Notes under the pieces: generated by a model
The model's input: the letters and a program-made list of their open reading frames with translations, nothing else
Told to the model about the DNA's origin: nothing
Database searches by the model: none
Program-made: the position numbers and the translations under genes
Shown here: positions 43,496 to 59,737 of the stretch, one piece after another
How the letters are laid out: every line of letters starts with the position of its first letter
How positions within the stretch are numbered: position 1 is the stretch's first letter
NCBI GenBank assembly: GCA_028287505.1
Contig: JAQBPN010000130.1
Location: 62,001 to 126,000, forward strand
Direction: 5' to 3'
DNA from: Fibrobacterota bacterium
GTDB lineage: Bacteria; Fibrobacterota; Fibrobacteria; UBA11236
DNA length: 64,000 nt

Positions 43496-45643
43496 CTAGC
43501 GGGCCGAAAGCACCACTCTTCGGGTAACTTTAAGGTTCCCCATGGAAATCCTGAGGGCATAGACGCCGGCCTTCCGCTCCCCGGAAACCAGGTCGACCGC
43601 GGCGCGTCCGTTTCCGGCCACCTCCACCGCGCCGGTCACCCGGGTCTTCCCGGCCATGTCCACCAACGCGTAGCCGACCTTCTCCCCTGTCGCCGAACCG
43701 TTGACCAGGTTCAAGCGTCCGGATCCGGCGTCGAACGCCGCCGACCATTCGCCGGGCAGAACGTTGCGCGCCGCCGTGACGCTGGGCGTCTTGTCCGCGA
43801 ACCAGATGGCCATGTCCGCTCCCGCCGCCAAAGCGGGCGCGGTCACCGTCAAGACGCCGCCGGTGGCGGTCACGCCGGCCGCGTTTCCGTAGCCGCCTTT
43901 CCAGGTATCGAAAGACTTCCAATCGTATGCGACGTTGGCCACGCCGGTCACCTTGACCTGATAGTTGTTCGTGGCCGCGCCGCCTTTGTTGTAGAGCCAG
44001 ACGAACACGCCGCGGTCGGACTTGATGGCCCGCGCCTCCACGTTGGCGACGGATTCCGTGGCCAGGCTGGAAACGCCCTTGGTATCGGCCGTCATCTTGT
44101 CCATGAAGTCCCGGGCGCGGGCGAAGTGGAAGTAATCGTTGTTGTCCGCATGGAAGTCCCACCACCAGGTGAGGGGCAGGATGGGCGTGGCGGAGAACAT
44201 GCCGCGCCACAAGCCCAGGTGCAGCTCCTTGGCGTACTGGTCGTGGGGATGCTGGGTCACGCCCTGCCAGTCGAAAGAGAACTCGCCGGAGACGAAGGGC
44301 TTCTTGTAATTCTTCGAATAACTGTCGAGAAAGGTGATGAACTGATCCGTGGACCCGTACAGGTGACGCTGGGTGAAGTCCATGTTCTTAAGGCTCCATA
44401 TTTCGGGGAAGTCCGAATGGGAAAGGCTCGTGGTGACGAGATGGTTGTATGGATCGATGCTGCGCAGGTACGAGGCCATGTAATTGTGCCAGTTGCCCAG
44501 ATCGGCGGCGGGCACATGCTCCGTGATGTTGGCCCAGTCCACTTCGTTGAAGAATTCATATACCGCCATATAAGGACTGTAGCCCCAGCGCGCCACCGCG
44601 TAGCGCAGGCGGTTCTTGTAGATGTCCCGAGCCTTGGCCCCGTTGAAGAAATCGATGGGGCCGTTGCAGGGCCCGCCCTTGTACGTTCCGTAAGGGTTCT
44701 TCTGCCACTTGATCTCGCCGCTCCATCCGTCCACGCCGGTCTGGTATTCGATGACGGGATCCAAGGTGGGCATCAGGTAGATGCCGCTCTGCTCCGCCAG
44801 GTTGAGCACCTTGTCCAGGCGGTTGGCGGTGTCCTGCTGGTACCAGCCGGCCTTGCCCGTGCCCTGCTCAAGGTAAAAGTTGCCCGGGCCCTTCCAGGTG
44901 CGCACGAAATTGGCGCCGTTCTGCTTGAGCAGGGCGAACATCACCTCGAAAGTGTACTTGCCGCTCTCCCAGCCGAAGTTCTCGCCCACGCCGCGCCAGG
45001 GTTTTCCCGAATCGAAACGGAACTGGTAGAAGGACCCGGTGGTATCCATGTGCAGGAAGCCGTCCAGGTTGGAGGGATTGACCGTGAGGCTCTGGGCGGC
45101 GGAGAGGGAGGTTTCCCCGCTCTTGAGCACGGAGATCCTGTAGGTGAAATCGCCCGTTTCCCGGGGCGTCCAGCGCGCTTCCCAGACCGACGCGGCCGTG
45201 GTGCCGGATTTGAAGAAACAGGGTTGCACGATGGTCTTGCCCGAAGGGGATGTGGCCACCAGATCCACCTTCACATCGTTCTGGTCATAGGGATTGGCGT
45301 AGTTGACGGCCATGGTGATGGTGGCGAAGAGGGGACGGTAAAGATCCACCGCGGCGGCGGCTGGCTTCACGTCGATGGCGATGGCGGCGGCCGCGGCGGC
45401 CATTTTGCCCAAGGGCGCGGCGGCGGGCATGGGAATGGGATCGATGGGCGCGAAGGGGCGGGCCGCTTCTTGGGGACCTTGAACCGCAGTGCCCGGGGAA
45501 CCCGCTCCGGGATCCTTAGCGTACTTCTCGGAACCATCCGGATATTGCCTGGCCGCGGAGCCGTTGCCCTCTTGCGCGAAGCCGATGGAAGCCGATAAAA
45601 CCAGATTGACCGCAATGCCTGAAAACAGACCCCACCGGCGCAT
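43496..45643 (-). CDS. Secreted glycoside hydrolase (clan A-like barrel) with C-terminal module
   Basis: This 715-aa protein has a signal peptide (about 1-23), a linker, a beta-sandwich (about 95-190, DUF5060-like) and a (beta/alpha)8 barrel (about 200-530). Glu367 in FFNEVDW is the likely acid/base and Glu454 in VSGEFSF the likely nucleophile, the arrangement of retaining clan A enzymes. The last 80 residues (AGVYALRISMGNLKVTRRV) form a beta module shared with other secreted proteins here. The substrate is probably a beta-linked polysaccharide. Confidence 0.8.
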   Translation of the reverse strand: MRRWGLFSGIAVNLVLSASIGFAQEGNGSAARQYPDGSEKYAKDPGAGSPGTAVQGPQEAARPFAPIDPIPMPAAAPLGKMAAAAAAIAIDVKPAAAAVDLYRPLFATITMAVNYANPYDQNDVKVDLVATSPSGKTIVQPCFFKSGTTAASVWEARWTPRETGDFTYRISVLKSGETSLSAAQSLTVNPSNLDGFLHMDTTGSFYQFRFDSGKPWRGVGENFGWESGKYTFEVMFALLKQNGANFVRTWKGPGNFYLEQGTGKAGWYQQDTANRLDKVLNLAEQSGIYLMPTLDPVIEYQTGVDGWSGEIKWQKNPYGTYKGGPCNGPIDFFNGAKARDIYKNRLRYAVARWGYSPYMAVYEFFNEVDWANITEHVPAADLGNWHNYMASYLRSIDPYNHLVTTSLSHSDFPEIWSLKNMDFTQRHLYGSTDQFITFLDSYSKNYKKPFVSGEFSFDWQGVTQHPHDQYAKELHLGLWRGMFSATPILPLTWWWDFHADNNDYFHFARARDFMDKMTADTKGVSSLATESVANVEARAIKSDRGVFVWLYNKGGAATNNYQVKVTGVANVAYDWKSFDTWKGGYGNAAGVTATGGVLTVTAPALAAGADMAIWFADKTPSVTAARNVLPGEWSAAFDAGSGRLNLVNGSATGEKVGYALVDMAGKTRVTGAVEVAGNGRAAVDLVSGERKAGVYALRISMGNLKVTRRVVLSAR

Positions 45644-45756
45644 AGACTCTCCCTGTTACTTCCCGAACCACCGGCAGGAATAATAAAGATTGCCGCGGCG
45701 CCGCGGAACTCCGGCGGGAAAATACCGGTTTCGGATTGAAAGCGGGAGGAGGAGCG

Positions 45757-47373
45757 TCAGGGGACGCGGGCGATGTAGACCCCGGTCTGCAATGGATGCT
45801 TGGGCCGCAGCATAAGCAGGACGCCGCTTTTGAGCACGGTAACCGGAATGCGACGTCCGGACAGGTCGATCAATTGCAGATCCGGTTTGGGCCGGCCCGG
45901 ATCCCAGCCGAGGATGATGGGGTTTTCGCCGCCCGAATGGTAGAGCCGGGAAATCCCCGTTTCCACCAGGGGAGGTAAGATGGGAACTCCGGTCTTGCGG
46001 ACCGCCGCCGCCGCGTCCACCACCCCATGGCCCACCTCGCCGTTGGGATGGGCGTAATGATCCGCCGTGGTGATAAGGGCCTGGCGGATGTCCTCGGCGG
46101 AAAGCTCCGGGCGCAATTGGCGCATGAGGGTCCCGATGCCGGCGAGGACGGGAGCGGCGAAGCTGGTGCCGCCGGCGGCCTCCGAGGCCGCAACGGCCGA
46201 TCCGGGGTCGGCCACCGCCACCAAGCAATTACCCGCGATCCCCAGGGACATGACGTCCGGTTTCACCCGGCCGTCGACGCTGGGTCCAGTGGAAGAATAG
46301 GAGCACCGCTGGCGGAATGCGTCGGCGATACCCACGGCCAGGATGCTGTCGGCGTCGGCGGGGGTGCTGAGGGACGGAAAGCCGGATGCGTCTTTGGCCC
46401 CGTCGTTGCCCATGGACACGGAGACCAGCACGTTGCGGCGGGCCGCGCCCAATGCGGCCAGGGACGACGGGCGCGTGCGGCCGTCGAATTCGGAATAGAG
46501 GAGGTTCGGACTGCCGTCCGTGAAGTCGTACCGGTACCCCAGGCTGATGCTGATCACCTGGGCGCCGGAGTCCACGGCCCTTTCGATGGCGGCGGCCACG
46601 TAGTCCTCCTCCACGTAGCGCTCCTGGGCGGCTTCTTCCGCGCGGTAGAGCAGGAAATCGGCCTCCGGGGCGCCGCCCACCAGGGTACCTGGCGCGTTAC
46701 CCCCGATCAGGGACATGCATTCCGCCCCATGGCTGTCCAGCAGGCTGTCCGTAACGGCGGTATTCTTGTTGGCCACGAAATCGAACTGATCCTTGATGCG
46801 GCTTTTCATCGCCGCGAAGATGGGGCTGCCCAGGTGGAAATCTGCGTCAATGACGGCCACGCGCATTCCCTTGCCGGGCGGCATTCCCAGCGCGGTCATG
46901 TAGGCGTGCACCTTGTCCACGCGCAGGGATTCCATCAGCGGCCGGCCCGCGCCGTAGTCCAATCCTTCCGCCGCCCGTTTGGCCAGCCCGTTGGGGGGCC
47001 ATTGGAACGGGAGCCGCGGCATCGCGCGGTACGGGGCCTTGCGGGGCATGAGTTCTACCGAAGCGACGAAGGGAAGCCTCCGGATGGTTCCTATCGATCC
47101 TTCTTCGACGTACCCGGAGACGCGGTTCTGCCATTTGAGGCGGACCTCCGCGGCCAGGCCGCTTGCGCCCAGCGCCTGGATATAAGGCGCGTAGACGGAC
47201 AGGTTTTCGTACGACCGGGAGGCATGGGAAATAGCGGTGGTGGCGGGACCTTTGTCCTTGAAGGTGACCCAGACTTTGACGGGTTCGATCGAGCCCCCCG
47301 CCAACAAGCGTGTCACCGAGACCAGGACCAATAAGACCAGCGCTTTAAGCGCCGATCCCGGAAGCGGATTCAT
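45757..47373 (-). CDS. Secreted subtilisin-like (S8) serine protease
   Basis: This 538-aa protein has a signal segment (about 10-26), a propeptide-like region, and a subtilase domain. The triad is Asp176 in VAVIDADF (the usual DTG is DAD), His215 in DSHGAECMS and Ser404 in GGTSFAAP, with oxyanion Asn323 in MGNDG. The C-terminal 70 residues, ending GVYIARVP, look like the beta module of secreted proteins in this genome. It is adjacent to two glycoside-hydrolase-like genes on the same strand. Confidence 0.9.
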   Translation of the reverse strand: MNPLPGSALKALVLLVLVSVTRLLAGGSIEPVKVWVTFKDKGPATTAISHASRSYENLSVYAPYIQALGASGLAAEVRLKWQNRVSGYVEEGSIGTIRRLPFVASVELMPRKAPYRAMPRLPFQWPPNGLAKRAAEGLDYGAGRPLMESLRVDKVHAYMTALGMPPGKGMRVAVIDADFHLGSPIFAAMKSRIKDQFDFVANKNTAVTDSLLDSHGAECMSLIGGNAPGTLVGGAPEADFLLYRAEEAAQERYVEEDYVAAAIERAVDSGAQVISISLGYRYDFTDGSPNLLYSEFDGRTRPSSLAALGAARRNVLVSVSMGNDGAKDASGFPSLSTPADADSILAVGIADAFRQRCSYSSTGPSVDGRVKPDVMSLGIAGNCLVAVADPGSAVAASEAAGGTSFAAPVLAGIGTLMRQLRPELSAEDIRQALITTADHYAHPNGEVGHGVVDAAAAVRKTGVPILPPLVETGISRLYHSGGENPIILGWDPGRPKPDLQLIDLSGRRIPVTVLKSGVLLMLRPKHPLQTGVYIARVP

Positions 47374-47409
47374 GGTCTTATATTCTAACTAATTCCGGGC
47401 CGCTCCGCC

Positions 47410-48792
47410 TCATCGGCGCGCGCCATCTCGGGCGGCGGGAGTCCACGGACCGCGGAACCGGCCCCCGGCATCCAGAATCCAGGGTGCGGCCAACCCGGAG
47501 CCGGCTGTTTCCGGGATCAGGATCATTCCCGCGAAATGGGGTCTTTCCATGCCGTTGAAGAAATACGCTCCTCCGGATTGCTCCAGATTCCGGTTCCGGA
47601 ATGCCAATCCAGTCCGGCTTCCCGCGATTCTGTAGAGATGCACGCCGTAGTCCGAAAAGGTATCGCTGAATTTCCCGCCGGCCAGAGGGATGCTCCGGTC
47701 CTCTCCCAGAACCACGGCTTCGACGCCTTCGGGCACCGTGAAGGTGGCCGTAACCTGTCCCGGACGCATGGCCGCGGCGAATACGTAGGTATAGCCGCCG
47801 TGCCGTTTCACCAGGATATTGATGGGCGCCACTGAAGAAATGGAAGCGACGGTAGCCGCTTCGGACGCGGTGGGCGAATTCAGAACCGGAGCCAGCGACT
47901 GGATCTGCAGATTCAGGGCCGTGATGCCGGTCAGCATGGCATTGTCCCCGAAGAAACCCGCCTCTACCGTGGCCGGGAAGAAACTATGGCAGAAGTAGCC
48001 GATGCCGGTAGCGCCGTGGATGATGGCCATCCACACTTCGGACCGCACTTGCGCGGGAGTGGGCTTATCCGCCGGGGTCTCCGCAATCCGGGTGGTCTCG
48101 AACCAGGTCCAGACCGGCTTGGCGCGGTCGGACCATCGCGCCAGGCTGTCCACGCCTTTGGAGACGTACCACAAATTGCCGCGCACCTTGCTTTCGCCGG
48201 AATTGACCGGATACACGTCGAAGGACAGGATATCGGCACCCTGCGCGTATTGGGCATACATATCGGTTTTGCCCGTGCAAGTGCCGCGGCCGATCCAATC
48301 CGTCACGGCCACTCCCCGGCCCAAATTGAGATAAACCGGACGGGTGGAGTCCTTGGCCCGCATGGACTCGTACCCGGATACGATCTGGGAAGGAGCGATA
48401 CAGGGATCATATCCCGAACCATCCGCCTTGGCCTGGGCGTTGTCGGGTTCGTCATTGTGCATCCATCCCACGATGGTTTTGGAAGCGGCGTTCTGCAGGC
48501 CCACCGCATTCTGATCGCAAATGACGCGCATGCCGGCGGTGGCCAGAGCGGACAATTGCGCCTGGGTGGGCCCCTCCCATAGGCCTATATAGAGGTTCAC
48601 GCCCGCCTGTTTGTACTTGGCCGCGTTGGCGGGGCTTTGCAACCAGACGGCGATGGGGAAAAAGGCGGTGTCGGAAGGAATCCCGTTCTTCCACCGGCCG
48701 TTGTAAACGATGGGATCGGGTTGCGCCCGGGCCGGACTGCCGGCCCCGGTACAGAGGATCCCCGCGAGGATGATGAATAGACCTGCGCGCAT
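47410..48792 (-). CDS. Exported barrel protein resembling glycoside hydrolases
   Basis: This 460-aa protein has a signal peptide (about 1-24). A TIM-barrel-like body (about 35-310) follows with WMHNDEPDN, a possible acid/base Asp-Glu pair as in GH families 42/39-like enzymes, and PVWTWFETTRI. A beta domain ends it. The frame starts at GTG 48798, but ATG 48792 has GGGGGG five bases upstream, so I prefer it. The exact family is not recognised. Confidence 0.65.
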   Translation of the reverse strand: MRAGLFIILAGILCTGAGSPARAQPDPIVYNGRWKNGIPSDTAFFPIAVWLQSPANAAKYKQAGVNLYIGLWEGPTQAQLSALATAGMRVICDQNAVGLQNAASKTIVGWMHNDEPDNAQAKADGSGYDPCIAPSQIVSGYESMRAKDSTRPVYLNLGRGVAVTDWIGRGTCTGKTDMYAQYAQGADILSFDVYPVNSGESKVRGNLWYVSKGVDSLARWSDRAKPVWTWFETTRIAETPADKPTPAQVRSEVWMAIIHGATGIGYFCHSFFPATVEAGFFGDNAMLTGITALNLQIQSLAPVLNSPTASEAATVASISSVAPINILVKRHGGYTYVFAAAMRPGQVTATFTVPEGVEAVVLGEDRSIPLAGGKFSDTFSDYGVHLYRIAGSRTGLAFRNRNLEQSGGAYFFNGMERPHFAGMILIPETAGSGLAAPWILDAGGRFRGPWTPAARDGARR

Positions 48793-48864
48793 AAGCACCC
48801 CCCTTGGACCTCTTTATTATATCCGGTCCGGAAGAATTTACCCGCGAAAAACGATCGTTCCGGG

Positions 48865-50439
48865 CTAGGGACGCTTTCCCGGCGTGGGTTCGATGGAATT
48901 CCAATTCACGGGATCCCCGGAAAAAGCCCCGGGATCGGTGCGCCCCAGGGATTTCCCGCTCCCATCGGCGCCGGAAGGCCAGGGAGATTGGTCCGTATAG
49001 ACCATTTTTTCGACCGTCATATAGGGAACCAAGGTTCCCGAGCCGCGAAGATAAGGCTCTTCCGGCTTGAGCAGTTCCAACGAGTCCGACGCGTTGGAAA
49101 GCCGCTTGGACCCCGGGAAAATGCGGACGGACGGGGGAATCCCATGCAGGTTCCGGAATGTCGTATCCACCATGTTCCTGGACAGGATCACCACCACTTC
49201 GGCAGGGGCCAAGCTGACGCCGATCGGGAACTCGAAACCAAAGCCGCCGACTTTCCACGTGTTCTCCGGGAAGTCGGGATCGAAAAGCGGAACCGTATCG
49301 GCGGAAATGTTGGCCAACTCCACGTACTCGCCGGAATCGGCGGCGCCATCCGCGGGATGGTACATCACCTCGGTGAAGATCACGGGTCCCGTCCTGGGCC
49401 CTGCGTTCGCGCGCCCCAGTGTGGGTTCCTTCTGGGCCGGGAAAAACACCTGGCCGTGGACGCTGACGTACCGGCCGAGCGTGACGCCGTTTTCGATCTC
49501 GCCGAATGCGACGCCCTGGCAGAACCGGCCTCCGCACCCGAGGGAATCCGCCGACAGCCAGACTTCTTCCCCATGGGCATCCAGGGAGAAACTGTTGGGC
49601 AAGGTGGAGTCCGCGTTGAAGTCGCCCTCGTCGAAAACCGCGTACCCCTTGGCGGCGATGAGGGTGCCCGCCGGGATCCGGAACTTCATCGGCTGGGTGC
49701 GCTTGTCCGAAAGGAACCAGCCCCCGACATCGACAGGCGCGTCGTTGGGGTTGAAGAGTTCGATGGCGTCAAGGACCGGAAAGTCCGTATGCGTGAGGAC
49801 TTCGTTGATGACCACGCCGGCGGGATCGTCCTTGCCGGGAGAACCGTGGATGGCGAAAGAGGCGCGCCAGGCGTCGGTCCGCGCGGCACCGTCCGCCGCC
49901 GGAACCAGGGAATACCCGTCGCCGTCCGCCAGGGCCGGCCAAGGGCTCTTGTCGGAATATTCCACCGAGTCGATTTTTTCGCCGGACGGCACGTGCGTCA
50001 GGACCACCGCTTCGCCGGCGTTGTTGAGCCTGCCGGTATAGGCCCCGAACGGAGCGAACCCGTACCGTTGTTCGAATCGATCCGGATTGGCGGCCAGGAC
50101 CAGCAAGGCTCCCGCCTCCAGTCTTGCATCCTTGGGAAAGAGAAAGTCCACCCCGTCCGTAATCCCGATCCCGGTCAGGGAGAGAGCGGAAGCGCCCGTG
50201 TTCTTGATTTCCAGGAACTCGAATTCGTCCCCGGAAACCGTATCCTGGTCCGCGGGATGGTAATGGATTTCCGTGAAGCGGAGAGCCGACAGTTCCGGTC
50301 GGAATGCGGATCCATCCGATGAGTCCAGGCTGCCGCACCCGGAGAGGCCGGCCGCCAGCGCGGCTCCCAGGCAGAATCCGATCCATGTTCCCGATGCCGT
50401 CGATCCTCTTGTCATGCCCATCCCTATTGTCATGCCCAT
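48865..50439 (-). CDS. Lamin-tail-domain lipoprotein
   Basis: This 524-aa protein has a signal peptide with lipobox LSGC and three lamin-tail-like (LTD) repeats: FTEIHYHPADQDTVSGDEFE (about 55-160), VVINEVLTHTDFPVLDAIEL (about 210-330) and VIFTEVMYHPADGAADSGEY (about 345-480). LTD domains are beta-sandwiches that mediate surface or envelope contacts. It starts five bases after the VTC gene (ATG 50439 with AAGGA nine bases upstream); TTG 50448 is also open. An 18-bp duplication marks the signal-peptide coding region (50409-50440). Confidence 0.8.
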   Translation of the reverse strand: MGMTIGMGMTRGSTASGTWIGFCLGAALAAGLSGCGSLDSSDGSAFRPELSALRFTEIHYHPADQDTVSGDEFEFLEIKNTGASALSLTGIGITDGVDFLFPKDARLEAGALLVLAANPDRFEQRYGFAPFGAYTGRLNNAGEAVVLTHVPSGEKIDSVEYSDKSPWPALADGDGYSLVPAADGAARTDAWRASFAIHGSPGKDDPAGVVINEVLTHTDFPVLDAIELFNPNDAPVDVGGWFLSDKRTQPMKFRIPAGTLIAAKGYAVFDEGDFNADSTLPNSFSLDAHGEEVWLSADSLGCGGRFCQGVAFGEIENGVTLGRYVSVHGQVFFPAQKEPTLGRANAGPRTGPVIFTEVMYHPADGAADSGEYVELANISADTVPLFDPDFPENTWKVGGFGFEFPIGVSLAPAEVVVILSRNMVDTTFRNLHGIPPSVRIFPGSKRLSNASDSLELLKPEEPYLRGSGTLVPYMTVEKMVYTDQSPWPSGADGSGKSLGRTDPGAFSGDPVNWNSIEPTPGKRP

Positions 50440-50444
50440 CGCCT

Positions 50445-51269
50445 TCAATCCTTCCGGAAACCGGCCCAGGGCGAAACCCTGAGCGATTCATCGAATGTAT
50501 GCCTTTGGAATACCTGGGCGGCCCCGGCCCCATACTTGGAAAAACCGCGCCGCCTGAGTTCGAAGGTCCGGATGAGATCCACCATCCAGAGCGGCACGTA
50601 TTTGGAGAAGCATTTCAACTCCAGCACCACGGTGCATCCCTCGTCGAAAAAGTTCTCGGCATCGGAGGGCGCCATCGCGTCTCCGAGAAAAAGAGGGCGG
50701 TATTCCCGCTGGACCATGAACCGCAGATCCGAATCGAAAGTGACCCGCGCGTAGTCGTCGCAACCGGAGACGAAAGCCTTGCGGCGATAGCTGGTCATGA
50801 CCACGGGGGCGGCGTTGTAGGTATGCGCCAGCCGGCGGAACAGGGCGGCGCTCGCGGCCTCGCCGGCCTCACCGGCGTCCGCCAAGTAGGCGTGATCGGA
50901 ACGGGCCGGGTCGAGGACGCTTTCCAGATCCGGGTCTTTCACCCTGGCCCGGTATTTCCGGATGATGTCGCCCTGCTTCTGCTTGACCTCCAGGAAGTAA
51001 GGCAAACCGGGCCGTTCGCCGTAGGTGCGCACGCGCATGTTGAACCGGTTCTCGCTGCCATCCAGGCGGTTCCGCAGGAACACGTAATCGGGAGAGTCCA
51101 GGTAGAGGCTGTTCACCTGGTAGTACCCGTCGGCGGAGAGGTTCGAATACCGATCCAGGAAGCAATAGGGCCGGATGAATGCGGACACGGCCTCCACCAA
51201 CCCGACCGGAATGGTGTACTTGAGCTCGAACCGCTCCAGCATGCCCGCGGCGCCTTTATCGATGGTCAT
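50445..51269 (-). CDS. VTC-domain (polyphosphate polymerase-like) protein
   Basis: This 274-aa protein fits the VTC domain of the triphosphate-tunnel fold: RFELKYTIP (about 12-20, start of the ExK strand), RFNMRVRTYGE, PYFLEVKQKQGDIIRKYR, YRPLFLG and TVVLELKCFSKYVPLWMVDL. In yeast, VTC4 makes polyphosphate from ATP; bacterial relatives usually pair with DUF4956 membrane proteins. It overlaps the TolC-like gene by four bases (ATGA). Confidence 0.85.
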   Translation of the reverse strand: MTIDKGAAGMLERFELKYTIPVGLVEAVSAFIRPYCFLDRYSNLSADGYYQVNSLYLDSPDYVFLRNRLDGSENRFNMRVRTYGERPGLPYFLEVKQKQGDIIRKYRARVKDPDLESVLDPARSDHAYLADAGEAGEAASAALFRRLAHTYNAAPVVMTSYRRKAFVSGCDDYARVTFDSDLRFMVQREYRPLFLGDAMAPSDAENFFDEGCTVVLELKCFSKYVPLWMVDLIRTFELRRRGFSKYGAGAAQVFQRHTFDESLRVSPWAGFRKD

Positions 51270-52558
51270 TGGGCCAGGACCTCATTGCGCGCGGACAGGA
51301 AATTGCGGAGCGGAGCCTGGGAGAGTTTACCCGTGGCATCCATCACCTTGACGTAGTTCAGGATGAGGCCGTACTTCACCTCTTCCAGCTTGATGGAGTT
51401 CCGGAGATTGCTGGCCTTGAGGGAAAGGAGGATCAGGGGATCGACTCCGCTCAATTGCAGGTACTTCTTGAGGGAGGCTTTCGCATCCACTTCGGTTTCC
51501 CTGGCTTTGAGATACCGGTATTGCGAGATCAGGGAGGCGATGTCCTCGATGTCCTTTTCCATCACGTTCTTCAGTTCGCGCTTCTTTTCTTCGAAGTCCT
51601 CTTTCTCGGAAAGGAACTCTTCCTTCCGCCGGTTCAATTCCAGATTGCCGTCCGTCAGGCCGGGCAGGCGGAAGCCTGCCTCCAGGATGTAGGCGCGGCC
51701 GAGATCATAGTCCCGGCCCTCGTCCCTGCGGACCTGTTCGTCGAGTCTGTTCTCCACGTCGTAGGAAAACTCCAGGAAGCTCAGGAACCGGCGGCCCTTG
51801 GCCTTTTCCAGGCGGTAGCGGCTTTCGGCCAGATCCAGGCTCAACTCCAGATAGTCCATGTAGACATGGTTGGTATCCACCGTGAAGCCGCCCTTTTCCG
51901 CCAGGACGATGATGGAATCGACGGAAACCAGGCCGGTGGTGTCGAACCCGGCGAAGGGTCCTTTCAGGTATTGGCCGGCGCGCAACTCCAGGACGCGGAT
52001 TTCCTTCATCGCTTCCAGGTTCTGGGCCTTGAGCTTGGAGAGTTCGATCTCGGCCTCGATGAGCGTGTTGAAGTCGAAATTCTCGCTCGTCTTCCGCTTG
52101 TCCAATACCATGATCTTGTCTTCGGACACGGAAATCATTTCCTGGTACAGGAGCTGAAGTTCCCGCTTCATGAGCATGTCTATGACGATGGCATACCGCT
52201 CCGCCAGGGCGCGGTTCAGGAGCATGCGGTTCCGCTGCCCGCTCTGCTTCATCAGGATGCCGTTGAAACGCTTGGAGGCGCCGCCCTCGCCGATGCCCCT
52301 CGGCTCCAGCCTGAGGCTGTAACGCTGCCCGATCCAATCGAAGGCGACGTTGCGGACCCTGAATTCCATATCGCTTACGAACGGCAATCCCGTGTAGGCG
52401 CCATAGGCGAATTCCCGATCGGCGCGCCTGGCCTGGATGACATCGTCTTCCTTGGCCGTGAGCAGGAAACCGGAAATGCCGGACGATCCGGCGGGGGCCG
52501 CGGACGATTCCGGGATCAGCGTCAGCATGAGAGCCGCCGCCGCGAGGATAAATTTCAA
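51266..52558 (-). CDS. TolC-like outer-membrane channel protein
   Basis: This 430-aa protein has a signal peptide (KFILAAAALMLTLIPESSAA) and long heptad-rich helices (about 125-215 and 325-385, such as LLYQEMISVSEDKIMVLD and EDFEEKKRELKNVMEKD) typical of the coiled-coil tunnel of TolC-family channels. Homology is weak, so this is by structure pattern. TTG 52558 overlaps the stop of the HlyD-like gene (TTGA). In the operon it would extend the conduit through the outer membrane. Confidence 0.65.
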   Translation of the reverse strand: MKFILAAAALMLTLIPESSAAPAGSSGISGFLLTAKEDDVIQARRADREFAYGAYTGLPFVSDMEFRVRNVAFDWIGQRYSLRLEPRGIGEGGASKRFNGILMKQSGQRNRMLLNRALAERYAIVIDMLMKRELQLLYQEMISVSEDKIMVLDKRKTSENFDFNTLIEAEIELSKLKAQNLEAMKEIRVLELRAGQYLKGPFAGFDTTGLVSVDSIIVLAEKGGFTVDTNHVYMDYLELSLDLAESRYRLEKAKGRRFLSFLEFSYDVENRLDEQVRRDEGRDYDLGRAYILEAGFRLPGLTDGNLELNRRKEEFLSEKEDFEEKKRELKNVMEKDIEDIASLISQYRYLKARETEVDAKASLKKYLQLSGVDPLILLSLKASNLRNSIKLEEVKYGLILNYVKVMDATGKLSQAPLRNFLSARNEVLAQ

Positions 52559-54588
52559 GGCACGGCCCCCAACTTCTGTATGCGCGAAGGCCGGCCGGAG
52601 CCGTTGTCGAAAGCGATGAAAAGGCTTTTGTCGGCGGCGCGATAGGCGATGCCCTCGGGCTTCCGGCCGCCGAAACCGCGCAGGCGTTCCGGCCGGGAGG
52701 CCCCGGCCCGCAACCGCCACAGTTCGCCCAGATGCCCGCCTCGATCCTCCGCGCCGCCGGCGCTGCCCGTGGACAGGATATAGGCGTCGCCCTCCACCAT
52801 CAGGAGGTCGGAAATCCCGCAAGGGACTCCGGTCTCCAGGTCTTTCAATTCCACGGCCTTCCAGATGCCGATCTTCCCGGAGGCGGCAGCGGTTCTTCCG
52901 GCGGCTGTTCCATCCAACACGGCCTTGGCGTCGGCGAGGCGCAGGATCACGGCCTTTCCGCCCAGGAGCGGGCGCTTGCAACCCAACAGCAAGGCGCCGT
53001 CGCGCCAAGCCATGCCTTCGATATCCAAGGAGCTGTCCGCGATGGCGCCGGCGACATACCCGGCCCATTCCTCCCCCGGATTCTCCCGCGCCGCATTCTC
53101 GAGAAGATCCGTAAGCGACACTTTACCGTTCAGTTCCAGGGTCCAGCCTTTGCGTTTCGCGCGCACCAGCAGCTTGCGCGTGTCCGGGATCTTCCCTTTC
53201 TTGTTGAGGCTCTGGCTGGAAGCCACGTAGATGGAACCGTCGTCCCCGGCGGTGATGGATTCCATGTCGTTCATCTTCTCCAGACCGATGATGCCGGTCT
53301 CGCGCTCCTTGCGGAAGGCCGAGTCCAGAAGAAAGAGCACCGGGGCCTTCTTGGGCGTGTCATCGCTGATGACCAGGAACCGGCCCAGGTCCTCCAGGTA
53401 GAGGAGACCGGAAGCTTCGATGCCCGGCAATTCCGCGCCCGTATCCGCCGCGGTCGATGCGGACGGCGCGGCGCTCCCGGATATAGGCTGCGCGGCCGCG
53501 GGCCGGGCCGGAGACGGGAACAGGCCGGCGCTGGCGCTGGCATTGGGACTTGCGCCCACAGGGGCGGGAGCCTTCGTTTCCGGCCCGGACAAGGCGATGG
53601 TCACCTTTTCACCCAGCAGGAACCGGTTATCCGGCGGAAGCCTGACGATGATCTCGCGTCCCCAAATCTGGATATCCGATCGCTTCCTCAGCCGCTCCGG
53701 ATACTCCACGATGCGCGCCCCCACACCGACGACCTCGCCAGCGATGCGGCTCTTCCCGTCATGGCTGGACTGGACCGTGACCTTCTGATTCACCGCCACC
53801 CGGCTGTAGACGTCCTCGTGGATGTAGCCGCGCACGAAAGACGGCGATTCGGCATGGAGCGTAAGGATGGGGGCGAAAGCCGGAACCTTCTCGCCCTCCT
53901 TGAAATTCACGGAGCCGATGAGCCCGTGGATCTGCGCGGTCATAATCAGGCCCGATTTCTCCTCCTGGAGCATTCCGAGTTCGTCTTCGAGGCGGCGCAC
54001 CTGCTCGACGAGAGGCTCGCCGGAGGAAGAGAGGGCGTTGCTCAGCCGATCGACATAGATCCGGGACGGATCGCCTGCCAGCTCCAGCATCTTCCTGAGG
54101 CTCTCAAGCTTGATCCTGACGGGATTGCCCGCATCGTCCTCCTGCTTGGCGGATGCCTTGTCCTTATCCAGGCTCCTGAGTTGGGAAACCAGCTGCTTAT
54201 TGAGTTCGAGCTGCGCCTCCAACTCCCGGATCTCGTCCCGCAACCCGCCGACGCGCTCCTGCTGCTCCGCCCGCAGTTGGCGGATCTCGGACTTGGACAG
54301 CGTGGCATGGGCGGTTTTGCGGGTGCGGAGCTCGTTGAGTTCATGGCTGATCCGGGAGATGTCCTGCTCGAGCTCGGGGTTGTACAGCTCCAGCAAGGTG
54401 TCTCCGCGGGCGACCATGCGGCCCTGCTCGACGTAAATCCTGCGGATCTCCACGGGACTCCGGGAGCTTACCGCGATCTCCTTGGTGTCCGCTATGCCGT
54501 ACAACGTGTCCGGCTCGGAGCGGTAGAATGCGGTGAGGCCGATGAGGGCGGCGGCGGCGATCGCGCAGGCCCAGTAAAGGGTTTTCAT
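52555..54588 (-). CDS. HlyD-like membrane-fusion protein fused to a C-terminal propeller-like domain
   Basis: This 677-aa protein has a membrane anchor (about 6-22), a lipoyl/HlyD start (VEIRRIYVEQGRMVARGDTL), coiled coils (about 80-230), and a beta-barrel adaptor region (about 290-385). A Pro/Ala-rich linker follows, then a domain (about 450-677) with SGLLYLEDLGRFLVISD, SLDIEGMAWRDGALLLGCK and GISDLLMVEGDAYILS, the repeat form of a propeller (DUF3616-like). Typical HlyD proteins end without such a domain. ATG 54588 overlaps the DUF4956 stop (TGATG) with GGAG nearby. Confidence 0.75.
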   Translation of the reverse strand: MKTLYWACAIAAAALIGLTAFYRSEPDTLYGIADTKEIAVSSRSPVEIRRIYVEQGRMVARGDTLLELYNPELEQDISRISHELNELRTRKTAHATLSKSEIRQLRAEQQERVGGLRDEIRELEAQLELNKQLVSQLRSLDKDKASAKQEDDAGNPVRIKLESLRKMLELAGDPSRIYVDRLSNALSSSGEPLVEQVRRLEDELGMLQEEKSGLIMTAQIHGLIGSVNFKEGEKVPAFAPILTLHAESPSFVRGYIHEDVYSRVAVNQKVTVQSSHDGKSRIAGEVVGVGARIVEYPERLRKRSDIQIWGREIIVRLPPDNRFLLGEKVTIALSGPETKAPAPVGASPNASASAGLFPSPARPAAAQPISGSAAPSASTAADTGAELPGIEASGLLYLEDLGRFLVISDDTPKKAPVLFLLDSAFRKERETGIIGLEKMNDMESITAGDDGSIYVASSQSLNKKGKIPDTRKLLVRAKRKGWTLELNGKVSLTDLLENAARENPGEEWAGYVAGAIADSSLDIEGMAWRDGALLLGCKRPLLGGKAVILRLADAKAVLDGTAAGRTAAASGKIGIWKAVELKDLETGVPCGISDLLMVEGDAYILSTGSAGGAEDRGGHLGELWRLRAGASRPERLRGFGGRKPEGIAYRAADKSLFIAFDNGSGRPSRIQKLGAVP

Positions 54589-55271
54589 CAGATCTCCACC
54601 GTGGTTTCCTGGAGCATGAGATTCACGTCCTTGGCCGTCCCCAGCCTGCGGATCCCGTCCACGAGGCCGTCCCGGGTCTTGCCGAATCGGAGCTTGACGT
54701 GATAGGCGTACTCCAGCCGGCTTCCCTGCGTGGTCTCCCGCAGGGTGATGAGGGCGAAGTTCCGGCAATGATCCTTGAGGATGCCCTCCAGGCCGGTCCT
54801 TTCGCCGGCATCGCTCGGGATGTTGAAGCGCAGCAGGCCGTCGTAATGGCGGTACTCGCCCAGCGGCGAATAATAGAGAAGCGTCGCCGCCAGGCAGAAG
54901 CCCGCGGTGCCGATAACGGCGATGCCGTAGCCGAACACGCCGCAGGCGATTCCCGAAGCGATGGAAGCGAACATGAAGATGATGTCGCGCGGATCTTTGA
55001 ACGAAGTACGGAACCGGATGATGGAAAGGGCGCCCATCATGCCCAGGCCGCGGGCCAGGTTGTCGCCGATGGCCTGCATCACGGTCCCGGCCACGATGGA
55101 GCTGAGGATCATGGCCTGCAGGAAATTCCGGGAATAGGAAAGTCCGCGAAAGGTCTTCTCGTACGTGACGGCGATGGCCGTGGACAGCAGGAAGGAAAGC
55201 AGGACGGTATAGAGGATGCTGACGAACGAAGGGTTGGCGGAGGTCGTCTGCAAAGTCAGGAAATCAAGCAT
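54588..55271 (-). CDS. DUF4956-family membrane protein
   Basis: This 227-aa protein has about four membrane helices (about 16-38, 50-66, 97-117 and 122-134) and a soluble C-terminal part (about 145-227). It has the conserved GLGMMGALSIIRFRTSFKDP stretch between helices. DUF4956 proteins are typical partners of VTC-domain enzymes. It is the first gene of the five-gene minus-strand operon ending at 48865. Confidence 0.88.
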   Translation of the reverse strand: MLDFLTLQTTSANPSFVSILYTVLLSFLLSTAIAVTYEKTFRGLSYSRNFLQAMILSSIVAGTVMQAIGDNLARGLGMMGALSIIRFRTSFKDPRDIIFMFASIASGIACGVFGYGIAVIGTAGFCLAATLLYYSPLGEYRHYDGLLRFNIPSDAGERTGLEGILKDHCRNFALITLRETTQGSRLEYAYHVKLRFGKTRDGLVDGIRRLGTAKDVNLMLQETTVEI

Positions 55272-55380
55272 TTAGGCGAAGCCTTTCTGAGCGAAAGCCT
55301 TCCGGGAGACCCGAAAGGCGCTTGTAGATCAAGTATTGATTCAATCGGCGGTCGGGATAATCGGCGGACCCTTCCAGCCC

Positions 55381-57429
55381 TCACTGCTTACTGAACCCGG
55401 GATAGGGCCGGGCCTGCTTGATGAGGATTATCGGACTCCCATTCGGATCGTCCATGGGCTGATCGAGTTTGAAATCCACTTCCATGCCCCACCATTTGGA
55501 GGCATCCTTTCCATATAGGGGTTGGTAGTACTTTTGGATTTCCTTCAAAGCCATCCCCAGCATATGGGTCTGGGCGGTGGTCAAAACCGTCGTTCCCTTG
55601 GGAACGAGGCTGGAATGGGCGATGAAGACGATGGGCTGCCCGGGCATGTCGTAATGGTAGACGAATTCATCGGTGGTAACTCCGGCGGTGGGCGCCACGA
55701 CTTCCTCATCGCCTCCTATCTGCGTATTGACGTAGAACCCCGGTTCCAGGCCGGACTCGTCGAACGGGTTGGCGGTGCTCGCGACGCCGTTGGCCTCCTC
55801 GTCGGGGAAAGCCGGATGCACCAGCAAGGCCATTCCCACCGATTTGTGGTCGATGCTGCGATACGTGCGTTCTTCGAAGGATCGGAAGAACCAAACGCCG
55901 GACCAGACGTTCTTGAGCGCATCGAAGATGGTTTTCACGGGATCGTCCAGGAGTCCGGCATGCGATTCGTAGAGGCCGGCGCCCGTGAACCCGTCAAGAT
56001 CTTCGGCGTTTGTGCTGGAACGGAAGCGGATCCTGTTGACGCCGGGGAATTCCTTGAGGACCATTTTCATCACCGCGTCCGCGAAGGCTGAATCGAGGGG
56101 AGCGGAGCGGATGGCATCGCGCAGCCGCTTCAAGCGCCTGTCCCGCTCCCCCGGATCTCCCGTGAACTTGGGATCCGCAAGCCACTTGTCCACACTGTCA
56201 TTGAATCCATGCTGTTGCATGTGCTGCCAGTAATAGAAGACGGGAATGCCGAAAGCCTTATGGAACTTGATCTGCGTGGTGTCCATGTGCGGAAAGGTGC
56301 CGTAATTGCTGGCCTTGCCGCCATAGGCGGGAATCGCTTTCTTGATGGCTTCGCCCAGGCTCAGGTTCTTCAGATCGAGGATATCCCCCACCGGCAGCAA
56401 TTCCTTGGCCGTGGTATCCATGTGGGCTATGCTGACGGCCGTCGGCTTGTGGGCTTCCCACCAGGCATCGGCTTCCACTTGGGTCACTTCCGTCACCGAA
56501 TAGGAGTCGGGGCCCACCACAAGCTTCACCCATTTCCCCTCAAGGGCGAGGAGCTTTTGATCGGTAACGGCTCCGTGGAGGCCCATATTCGGGATGCCGC
56601 GGTTTTGCGAAAGCACATTGATATGGGAGAGGGGGGTCTGGAACTCCTGCGTGATGATTCCGCTCGTGACCGAGATGTCGTTGGGCACGGCGTCGAGAAC
56701 CACGATGTCGCGGAATCCCACATATTCCGTTTCCAGATCTTTCGCGGTGGTGAAGACCAGCCTGCCGATGCCGGTCGCGTAATTGAGAGGCTGATAATCG
56801 ATGCCTTGGAAGAGTTTTTCCGATGTGATGATTTTCACCGAAGCGGGGAGCTTTTTCGCCTCAAGCTCCACGGCTTGGGAACTCGGATGGAAATACAGGC
56901 TGTCCCCGCAATAGCAGGCATCGGCAATTTTATTATAGGCCGTGGTTATCATTTCCGCGCTGGCGTTGTCATAGGGCGCGATTTCATAGGCCCAGATTCC
57001 CGGACCCTCGTAGCGGGTGACAGTGCCCAGGATAAAGCGCCGGTCAGGGCTGTAGTATTCCGTCTGATTGAATTGGGACAGCGGCGGCACGATGGGCTTG
57101 CCGTTTCCGGAGAGGTTGGAAGAGGTGAACTGCCAATGGATTTTGTATTCCTTGCTGTTCTGGAAATACAGGGCGCCCCCGTCCGCCAAGTCGATGACGG
57201 ATTTGAGCGAAGTCGCCCCGGGGATGGTCGCGTCCAAGGGCACGGAGGACAAGGCCGTGAAGTCGTCTTTGCATCCGATGGAATGGGAATAGGCGGGAGC
57301 GTCTCCATTGGCGATGGCGCATTCCCAGCTTTTGGGCGCGGCGGTCGAAGCACGCTCGCAGGAAGAGCTCAACAGGGCCAAAGCGCAAGCCAGCATCGGA
57401 AACAGGACGGTGGGTTTGCGCGCCATCAT
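55381..57429 (-). CDS. Exported PEP/pyruvate-binding (PPDK/PpsA-like) protein
   Basis: This 682-aa protein has a signal segment with possible lipobox Cys24 (SSSC, weak). A phosphohistidine-type swivel domain with His269 (FQTPLSHINVLSQNRGIP) precedes an ATP-grasp PPDK N-terminal domain with RFRSSTNAEDLDGFTGAG (about 467-484). In PEP synthase and PPDK the order is reversed: ATP-grasp first. Exposure outside the cytoplasm, where ATP is scarce, is odd. The start codon overlaps the upstream lipoprotein stop (ATGATG). Confidence 0.75.
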   Translation of the reverse strand: MMARKPTVLFPMLACALALLSSSCERASTAAPKSWECAIANGDAPAYSHSIGCKDDFTALSSVPLDATIPGATSLKSVIDLADGGALYFQNSKEYKIHWQFTSSNLSGNGKPIVPPLSQFNQTEYYSPDRRFILGTVTRYEGPGIWAYEIAPYDNASAEMITTAYNKIADACYCGDSLYFHPSSQAVELEAKKLPASVKIITSEKLFQGIDYQPLNYATGIGRLVFTTAKDLETEYVGFRDIVVLDAVPNDISVTSGIITQEFQTPLSHINVLSQNRGIPNMGLHGAVTDQKLLALEGKWVKLVVGPDSYSVTEVTQVEADAWWEAHKPTAVSIAHMDTTAKELLPVGDILDLKNLSLGEAIKKAIPAYGGKASNYGTFPHMDTTQIKFHKAFGIPVFYYWQHMQQHGFNDSVDKWLADPKFTGDPGERDRRLKRLRDAIRSAPLDSAFADAVMKMVLKEFPGVNRIRFRSSTNAEDLDGFTGAGLYESHAGLLDDPVKTIFDALKNVWSGVWFFRSFEERTYRSIDHKSVGMALLVHPAFPDEEANGVASTANPFDESGLEPGFYVNTQIGGDEEVVAPTAGVTTDEFVYHYDMPGQPIVFIAHSSLVPKGTTVLTTAQTHMLGMALKEIQKYYQPLYGKDASKWWGMEVDFKLDQPMDDPNGSPIILIKQARPYPGFSKQ

Positions 57430-58382
57430 TTGCACTGGAGGTCCTTCTGGCAGGTTTGGCCGTCCGGGCACCCGTCATTGTCTTCGCAAGAGATGAGGCC
57501 GGGAATGATGAGCGCTTTGGTGATGCCGGACTCGAGGACCAGGTCCACATGCACCGCCGCATTGGTACTGGTCGCTTTCCTCGAGATGCCGATATTGGGA
57601 TATCCGGAAACGCCCAACGCCTTGAGTTGATCCACCAGGGCGGCCGCTATTTCCAGCTTGCCGTCGTCGGGGCCTTCGCATTCGATTTTCCCCTTGATCC
57701 CGCCATGATGGCTGATATCGACCGCGACGGAGATCACGGTGGCTCCCGCGCTTTTCGGCGGCGTCCATTCCAGGCTGATCGGTTTGCCGTCGGCGAGGGT
57801 CAGGCTGTCGGTGAGAACCTCCAACGGGCTGATTCCGACCGCGGACACCGTGAAGGCGGAAGCGCCGGTATCCCCGCTGGCGGAGAACGTAACGGCATCG
57901 CCTTCGGCGAACGGAGGGAAGTCGAGGATGATTCCGCCGGTGGGCTGGTAACTGTTGACCACCGGATCCATGGCGAAGGAAACCGCGCCGGATTTCGTCT
58001 TCAGCCCGGTCACGCTCACCCTTCCGATTCCGACCGACTTGGGGAAATCCCGGCATTGGTTGTCCTCAACGCAGATGGCTCCGCTGCCGCAAGACTGTTC
58101 GCAGAACGGAACCCTCGGCTTCAGGAGCCGGCATTCACCGCTTTTCGCGGCTTCCTCCCAGATGAGGGACGACGGCGCGGGGCCCGTGTATACCTTGCCC
58201 AGCACCGAGGTGAATCCTTGCGATATATCCGTCGGAGCCACCAGGGAGACCTGGAAGCTGCCGGAGGTCGCATGGGTTCCCGTTGCCGGCTTTCCATCAT
58301 CGCCGGGATCATTCGTGCAGGCGAAAACGAACAGGAAGAGAGGCAAAACCCGGAATGGAAAACTCGATCTGGAATGTTTCAT
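57426..58382 (-). CDS. Lipoprotein with beta domains
   Basis: This 318-aa protein has a signal peptide with lipobox FVFAC (FAC at about 22-24), a Cys pair region (CEQSCGSGAICVEDNQC, about 105-120) and beta-rich repeats (such as GIGRVSVTGLKTKSGAVSF). It ends with a Cys-rich tail (CEDNDGCPDGQTCQKDLQCK). The two cysteine clusters resemble small EGF/dickerin-like folds. It is cotranslated with the PEP-binding protein. Confidence 0.65.
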   Translation of the reverse strand: MKHSRSSFPFRVLPLFLFVFACTNDPGDDGKPATGTHATSGSFQVSLVAPTDISQGFTSVLGKVYTGPAPSSLIWEEAAKSGECRLLKPRVPFCEQSCGSGAICVEDNQCRDFPKSVGIGRVSVTGLKTKSGAVSFAMDPVVNSYQPTGGIILDFPPFAEGDAVTFSASGDTGASAFTVSAVGISPLEVLTDSLTLADGKPISLEWTPPKSAGATVISVAVDISHHGGIKGKIECEGPDDGKLEIAAALVDQLKALGVSGYPNIGISRKATSTNAAVHVDLVLESGITKALIIPGLISCEDNDGCPDGQTCQKDLQCK

Positions 58383-58399
58383 CGATGTCTCTTCCCGGT

Positions 58400-59737
58400 T
58401 CATGGATTGAAAGCGAAGCAATAGAATCCGCCATAGCCGCCGCCCGAGCCGACGATGGGGTTGTTGGGATCGGACCCGCCGGTTTCCACCAGGTTGACGC
58501 CGACGCCGCAGCCGCCTTCGTCCTGGCCCGAGATCCAATTGATGCGGTTGCCGGCCGGAAAGGAGAAGCCCGTGCGCGGGCGGCCGGAGGTGGTGGCGCT
58601 CGACGTCCAGCTCAGGCAGGTGGCGGTGGGGCCGTATAGTTTACCCGTGGCGTCCGAGCCGGTCAGGAAGTGGTGATTGTCCTCTTCCGGCTTGGTCGGA
58701 TCGGGCCGGTGGTTGGGGATGCCGTCTTCGTTGGGGAGATCCACCTGTATGATCGGATCCCCGTTCGCGGGACGGGTGCCCAGGAGGTCCGCCTTCTTCG
58801 GCGCGAGCATCCTGCCGACGCGATCGTACCAAGGGCCCTCTCCGATCCGATCGATGGCGTTGGCCGGCTTACCGGCGTTATCCACGCTGACGCTCAGGAA
58901 GGCGCGCCAGCCCCTGGACGCGGAGCCGGGCATGCTCATCTCGGCCAGGCCGGCGCAGATCTTGTCCGCTCCCCGCAAGCCCGCCCCGTTTCCCGTTTCC
59001 CCGAATCGCAAATCCCCGCCGAAGCCTTTCTGGTTGCCGGAAAGGGTTTGCAGACCCTTCAGGCTGGTCACAAAGAAACTGAAATGCGGAGCGTTCTCCT
59101 TGATCATCTTCACCTTGACGCCGGAGGTATCCGAGCTCCCCAGGTTCAGGTAGTATTTCAGGTATCCGGTTTTCGTCGCCGTCAGCACGTCATAGGCCGC
59201 CGTAGCGCCCTGGGCCGCATTCTTGGCCAGGGCGGATTGCCCGGCGGGATTCCCGAGGCTTACCGGAGAAGCCCGCAAGGCGCCATCGATGGAAAAGGCC
59301 GTCACCACGGTCTCAAGCGGGCCCGACTTCACTTTGTAGAAACCGACGCCGGAACCGATCTCCAGCAACTTCACGGCATGCGACCCGGCATCCAGCTGCC
59401 GGCGTAGCGAGGAAAGCGCCTTGCCGTCGATCCCGAAGGCCGTGATCGTGATTTCGGATCGCTCTGCGAGGGAAATGAACATCGAGCCTTCGCGGATGGC
59501 GGCGATGGGCGCTCGTGGAACCGCATTCAGGATGGAAGTGTTCCCGCTCAGGGAAAAACTGCCGTCCGGGGCCGACGTCGTCGTCTCGCCGGAATTTTCC
59601 AGCTTGAGGGACGCCGCGGCAATCGGCGCGCCCGCGGAGTCCGTGACGATGCCGCTGACCTTCTGGCCGAACGCCGCTTGCGCCGCCAGCATCGCGCCTG
59701 CCGTCAGCACCGCCCGCATTTGTTTCCGCATCTTCAT
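58400..59737 (-). CDS. Secreted carboxypeptidase-regulatory/DUF1554-like protein (copy 1)
   Basis: This 445-aa protein has a signal peptide (about 1-24) and a carboxypeptidase-regulatory-like Ig fold (about 27-80, KVSGIVTDSAGAPIAAASLK). A middle beta region follows, with the Fibrobacter-type GFYKVKSGPLETVVTAFSI pattern. A C-terminal DUF1554/endostatin-like domain (about 225-445) has GNGAGLRGADKICAGLAEMS, WRAFLSVSVDN and final GGGYGGFYCF. AAGGAG precedes ATG 59737. It is one of two tandem paralogues. Confidence 0.78.
   Translation of the reverse strand: MKMRKQMRAVLTAGAMLAAQAAFGQKVSGIVTDSAGAPIAAASLKLENSGETTTSAPDGSFSLSGNTSILNAVPRAPIAAIREGSMFISLAERSEITITAFGIDGKALSSLRRQLDAGSHAVKLLEIGSGVGFYKVKSGPLETVVTAFSIDGALRASPVSLGNPAGQSALAKNAAQGATAAYDVLTATKTGYLKYYLNLGSSDTSGVKVKMIKENAPHFSFFVTSLKGLQTLSGNQKGFGGDLRFGETGNGAGLRGADKICAGLAEMSMPGSASRGWRAFLSVSVDNAGKPANAIDRIGEGPWYDRVGRMLAPKKADLLGTRPANGDPIIQVDLPNEDGIPNHRPDPTKPEEDNHHFLTGSDATGKLYGPTATCLSWTSSATTSGRPRTGFSFPAGNRINWISGQDEGGCGVGVNLVETGGSDPNNPIVGSGGGYGGFYCFAFNP

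Follow-up and report, generated by a model that had tools for sequence, protein, structure and literature searches.

The locus described here raises the question of why a VTC-domain protein and a DUF4956 membrane protein should be encoded together with a periplasmic adaptor, an outer-membrane channel and a lipoprotein. The DNA that was analysed, called the window below, is a stretch of 64,000 nucleotides from a Fibrobacterota bacterium (Fibrobacteria; UBA11236; assembly GCA_028287505.1, contig JAQBPN010000130.1, positions 62,001-126,000). Its open reading frames and Pfam matches reveal a five-gene operon at 48865-55271 on the minus strand, arranged head to tail in the following order:

54588-55271, minus strand: DUF4956 membrane protein, 227 aa (PF16316, E=1e-11)
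52555-54588, minus strand: membrane-fusion protein (MFP) fused to a beta-propeller (HlyD_3, 2e-9; weak phytase-like propeller match, 3e-4)
51266-52558, minus strand: TolC/OEP-like outer-membrane channel, 430 aa (family-level OEP matches; TTG start; signal peptide)
50445-51269, minus strand: VTC-domain (triphosphate tunnel) protein, 274 aa, without a signal peptide (PF09359, E=1.9e-41)
48865-50448, minus strand: lamin-tail-domain (LTD) lipoprotein, 527 aa (PF00932, E=9e-35, three LTD stretches; TTG start; LSGC lipobox)

The earlier note had given this gene content and order, and Pfam or family profiles confirm all five genes, four of which (DUF4956, the HlyD-type MFP, VTC and LTD) are named by Pfam itself. 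Its description of the junctions needs one correction. Overlaps of 1-4 bases are indeed present, and they are found at all four junctions (TGATG, 1 base; TTGA, 4; ATGA, 4; TTGA, 4), so that the genes it took to be 5 bases apart at TGATG in fact overlap by 1 base.

On the same strand, 109 bases upstream of the operon, lies a gene (55381-57471) whose product resembles a lipoprotein and has a PPDK_N domain (ATP-binding, of the PEP-synthase type). Downstream, after gaps of 66 and 36 bases, follow genes for a protein with weak likeness to GH42 and for a protease of the S8 family (subtilase). These outer neighbours are not conserved in most relatives: a relative of the PPDK_N protein occurs in one locus (L058) and S8 matches occur in two. 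In L058, which is a Chitinispirillaceae locus, the PPDK_N homologue is found upstream of the operon together with a relative of the PPDK_N protein's 370-aa neighbour. The window genes for the GH42-like (weak), S8 subtilase and DUF5060/GH5 proteins (43496-48798, minus strand) are separated by short gaps and are possibly cotranscribed; they are not conserved with the operon. No CotH kinase gene was found in the window, and the sole weak model match to CotH, at 43496-45643, turned out to be the DUF5060/GH5 protein.

The operon itself shows strict synteny. The identical 47 of 61 genomes of the window's class carry the MFP subfamily, the TolC-like subfamily, VTC and DUF4956, and in all 47 the four genes lie on one contig and one strand in the same order, with their matched domains no more than 345 bases apart. 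In an independent set of 241 genomes of the class Desulfobacteria, MFP is present in 14, VTC in 20 and both in 13, which places VTC in 13/14 genomes with MFP versus 7/227 (Fisher p ~1e-15). The two genes are adjacent in 12 of these genomes, and the two exceptions have partial MFP matches. Chance or local adjacency is ruled out by the order conservation in 47/47 carriers and by the Desulfobacteria co-occurrence. The usual Fibrobacterota order is DUF4956-MFP-TolC-VTC-LTD, and that of Desulfonema-type loci is (CotH-LTD)-MFP-TolC-VTC-DUF4956. VTC and DUF4956 belong to one locus in either case, with the MFP and TolC genes between them in the window and side by side in Desulfobacterota loci. The LTD gene follows VTC in most Fibrobacterota loci, where it is common but not universal, and a lipobox is present in 74 of 82 homologues of its product.

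Neither of the two objections that the earlier note had raised against its own proposal applies. The order is not unique to the window genome, as it recurs in those 47 relatives and the operon is found in several phyla. The HlyD- and TolC-like genes do not come from an unrelated neighbouring exporter, as in the 61 relatives both subfamilies have one copy per genome, always inside the operon cluster and never apart from DUF4956. The proposal was an envelope-spanning assembly that may make or move a phosphate polymer. Its envelope-spanning part is well supported by synteny and by the dedicated MFP and TolC genes, whereas the phosphate polymer is something that we still infer, given an intact VTC active site and Bacteroidota without VTC. 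The note did not mention the CotH kinase genes that are frequent neighbours of the operon, nor the simpler VTC-DUF4956-CotH locus on another contig of this genome.

Residues ~1-335 of the MFP make up a periplasmic adaptor of the HlyD/EmrA type, which is followed by a disordered linker and a beta-propeller (~390-675). This assignment is reached by Pfam, by the PDB profile search (best match EmrA, 1.3e-9), by the structural model (pLDDT 84.9; a single TM anchor, lipoyl/barrel parts and a long hairpin, then the propeller) and by a Foldseek search with that model (EmrA/MacA at 1e-13 to 1e-14; YncE for the propeller). In some loci (L054, L058) the MFP and the propeller are two separate genes. The protein encoded by 51266-52558 has no Pfam match of its own and is assigned to OEP/TolC channels only through its family, 21 of whose 41 members match OEP (PF02321; best 7.7e-10). 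Around the operon (43496-59737), none of the genes could be recognised as encoding an inner-membrane pump of the ABC, RND or MFS type.

The inner-membrane position is more likely taken by DUF4956. The 70 loci from which its relatives were gathered belong to Fibrobacterota, Desulfobacterota, Spirochaetota and Bacteroidota, and it adjoins MFP or VTC in every phylum sampled. Because it stays with MFP-TolC even where VTC is absent, DUF4956 is the probable inner-membrane partner of the duct. The AlphaFold model (mean pLDDT 75.5, moderate confidence) has about four TM helices, with helical segments at 14-40, 48-70, 72-84, 94-111 and 115-134, and then a C-terminal ACT-like alpha/beta domain. We considered whether DUF4956 is a Vtc1 homologue and rejected this, as its profile has no sequence match in the PDB and its model has weak fold matches only, to ACT domains and the MgtC C-terminal domain (2lqj) instead of the Vtc1-like three-helix channel subunit. 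A viral origin was rejected as well, since no relative of DUF4956 was found among viral contigs. The basic motif RFR[TS] is conserved, Gram-positive members included, and its first R is replaced in Bacteroidota.

A PDB search with the VTC profile picks up structures of yeast Vtc4 (E=3.5e-8). Eleven tunnel residues were compared (R264, R266, K281, K294, Y359, R361, R373, E426, K428, S457 and K458 of yeast Vtc4), and every one is identical in the window protein, where R264, R266 and E426 correspond to R79, R81 and E217. As such residues are common to triphosphatases and polymerases, their conservation is no proof of polymerisation, and judged from its sequence the window VTC is a candidate polyphosphate polymerase with an intact active site. 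In yeast, the R264A/R266A/E426N exchange impairs the enzyme, and VTC couples synthesis to translocation, with new chains entering a basic membrane channel (PMC9911596). In the VTC tree, the exporter-linked proteins form one group (support 94/90) apart from the plain VTC types. Two families of the window's class (f3/f4) are united with 100/100 support in a clade to which the window VTC does not belong, and the nearest rows to the window VTC are from Chitinispirillaceae and Desulfobacterota. Furthermore, among six genomes of its genus only the window's own contains the operon. This placement and distribution suggest horizontal transfer of the window operon, although the operon may instead have been lost elsewhere. 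The VTC of Desulfamplus magnetovallimortis (L057, G073:C2:484922-485637) is read in two frames of 101 and 164 aa, whether because the gene is split, because a frameshift interrupts it or because of an error in the sequence.

The reading that we favour, with a probability of roughly 0.45, is that of a polyphosphate exporter in the diderm envelope that is coupled to a synthase and in which DUF4956 would be the conduit feeding MFP-TolC. Cytoplasmic VTC would polymerise phosphate from ATP at the mouth of this inner-membrane conduit, and the growing anionic chain would pass outward through the putative DUF4956 pore and a sealed MFP-TolC duct to the cell surface, where it could be anchored or used by the lamin-tail lipoprotein and also, in many relatives, by a CotH kinase that is secreted. 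The push of synthesis and the membrane potential would take the place of the usual pump. We are more tentative about the complete scheme of a dedicated bacterial polyphosphate export machine, running from VTC via DUF4956 to a pump-less MFP-TolC, with surface delivery and possible use by CotH.

Some observations count against an exporter of polyphosphate. No resemblance to the channel helices of Vtc1-type proteins was detected in DUF4956, and the duct can exist without VTC, because all 11 Bacteroidota carriers lack it. DUF4956-MFP(-TolC) was found without VTC in 16 Bacteroidota loci, and a divergent VTC was sought there with the family profile (loci) and Pfam (11 genomes) and not found; the Pfam search gave 0/11 genomes with a VTC anywhere. 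The constant partner of MFP-TolC is thus DUF4956, not VTC: the core that stays invariant consists of DUF4956, MFP and TolC, and VTC joins it very frequently. PPK1 is present in 10 of these 11 Bacteroidota genomes and absent from both Desulfobacterota tested and from 37 of the 47 operon carriers of the window's class, which makes VTC the candidate polyphosphate synthase of those 37. The pattern fits a duct that either synthase, VTC or PPK1, may feed, with phylum and PPK1 confounded. The window genome has two PPK1-like genes close together (G000:C33:73174-77491), and the pair occurs on one contig in 3/5 other genomes of the genus.

That Bacteroidota retain the duct without VTC is also what the main rival would lead one to expect. 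According to this possible but doubtful explanation, what DUF4956-MFP-TolC exports is a different substrate, for example a peptide, a phosphorylated glycan or an anionic molecule that is either small or lipid-linked, and VTC has an auxiliary part, modifying or regulating this cargo as an enzyme or sensor. The MgtC-like layout of DUF4956, a TM bundle plus an ACT-like domain, is consistent with it, and so is the Gram-positive VTC-DUF4956-CotH set, which is accessory to loci for the Pel polysaccharide (PMC7112168, PMC12345266). However, VTC stands beside the duct genes always or nearly always in Fibrobacteria and Desulfobacteria, and no glycosyltransferase or other synthase is consistently adjacent.

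CotH brings in a further explanation. It is present in 14/63 four-gene loci and in 6 VTC-less loci, in one case (L035) 3 bp upstream of DUF4956, and the CotH proteins of operon loci probably act outside the cell because they can carry LTD and T9SS sorting domains. In Chitinispirillales-type genomes, arylsulfotransferase (ASST)-like proteins with T9SS-type sorting domains are encoded near CotH and the operon (L050:3166-4800, L051:4300-5745). Exported polyphosphate might then serve as the phosphate donor, or as a polymer transferred, for secreted CotH and for proteins on the surface, the lamin-tail protein among them. We know of no case of CotH using polyphosphate. Gram-positive bacteria offer parallels: CotH, polyphosphate polymerase and DUF4956 genes adjoin pel clusters in streptococci and clostridia (PMC7112168), a CotH-VTC-DUF4956(-DUF4832) set is found at the Pel locus of S. 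intermedius (SIR_1592-1594; PMC12345266), and C. perfringens NELoc-2 carries VTC and CotH genes (PMC2879425). Nevertheless, such extracellular phosphorylation appears unlikely, as the description of CotH in B. subtilis is that of a Ser/Thr protein kinase (PMC7821199), the window operon has no CotH nearby, and the only copy in this genome lies on another contig (C35) in a plain VTC-DUF4956 locus.

This plain layout, VTC-DUF4956 without the MFP or TolC subfamily, occurs in 5/61 relatives in addition to contig C35, and CotH stands beside it both there and in G004. The VTC-DUF4956-CotH locus of the window genome (G000 contig C35, L032:8430-12501) is common to G004, a genome of the same genus. MFP and TolC are missing, too, from two plasmid loci of Gram-positives, one of which has CotH. 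The plain loci and the pump-less operon could be taken to mean that VTC-DUF4956 has a role in phosphate storage or sensing at the inner membrane and that MFP-TolC, though regulated together with it, works mechanically on its own as an efflux system with a pump encoded elsewhere, yet this is quite improbable, as in the 61 relatives MFP and TolC subfamilies never part from DUF4956, which remains with them when VTC is absent.

Polyphosphate export remains our preferred reading. Bacteria have been reported to accumulate or secrete extracellular polyphosphate (PMC10653871, PMC12772234), and in the open-access literature we found no dedicated bacterial exporter for it, no description of the MFP-TolC version of the VTC-DUF4956 operon, and no account of DUF4956 beyond its place next to VTC and CotH. 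The operon is a concrete and widespread candidate for such an exporter in culturable Fibrobacter and Desulfonema-type hosts, and it supplies a role hypothesis for DUF4956.

One of the closest known arrangements is the Gram-positive CotH-VTC-DUF4956 set of Pel loci, which has been reported without an established function (PMC7112168, PMC12345266, PMC2879425). There, too, VTC adjoins DUF4956 and CotH is nearby, and a plain set of this kind is present on the other contig of the window genome. The window operon differs by three further genes, for its dedicated MFP, TolC-like channel and LTD lipoprotein, by a VTC that belongs to a separate group, and by the lack of CotH, which 14/63 related loci do have; no pel genes were noticed in its surroundings. 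With the yeast VTC complex (Vtc1/3/4) it shares the VTC/TTM catalytic domain, including all checked tunnel residues, and a putative polymerase encoded with a membrane protein. In contrast to yeast, there is no SPX domain and no detected Vtc1-like channel, DUF4956 being unrelated to the yeast channel by sequence and fold tests, and a duct across the diderm envelope is added. Finally, the EmrA/MacA-like adaptor and the TolC-like channel resemble those of EmrAB-TolC, MacAB-TolC and type I secretion systems, but here the adaptor may carry a beta-propeller, and DUF4956 probably takes the inner-membrane position in place of an MFS, ABC or RND pump. If our reading is correct, polymer synthesis, and not a pump, would drive this tripartite exporter.
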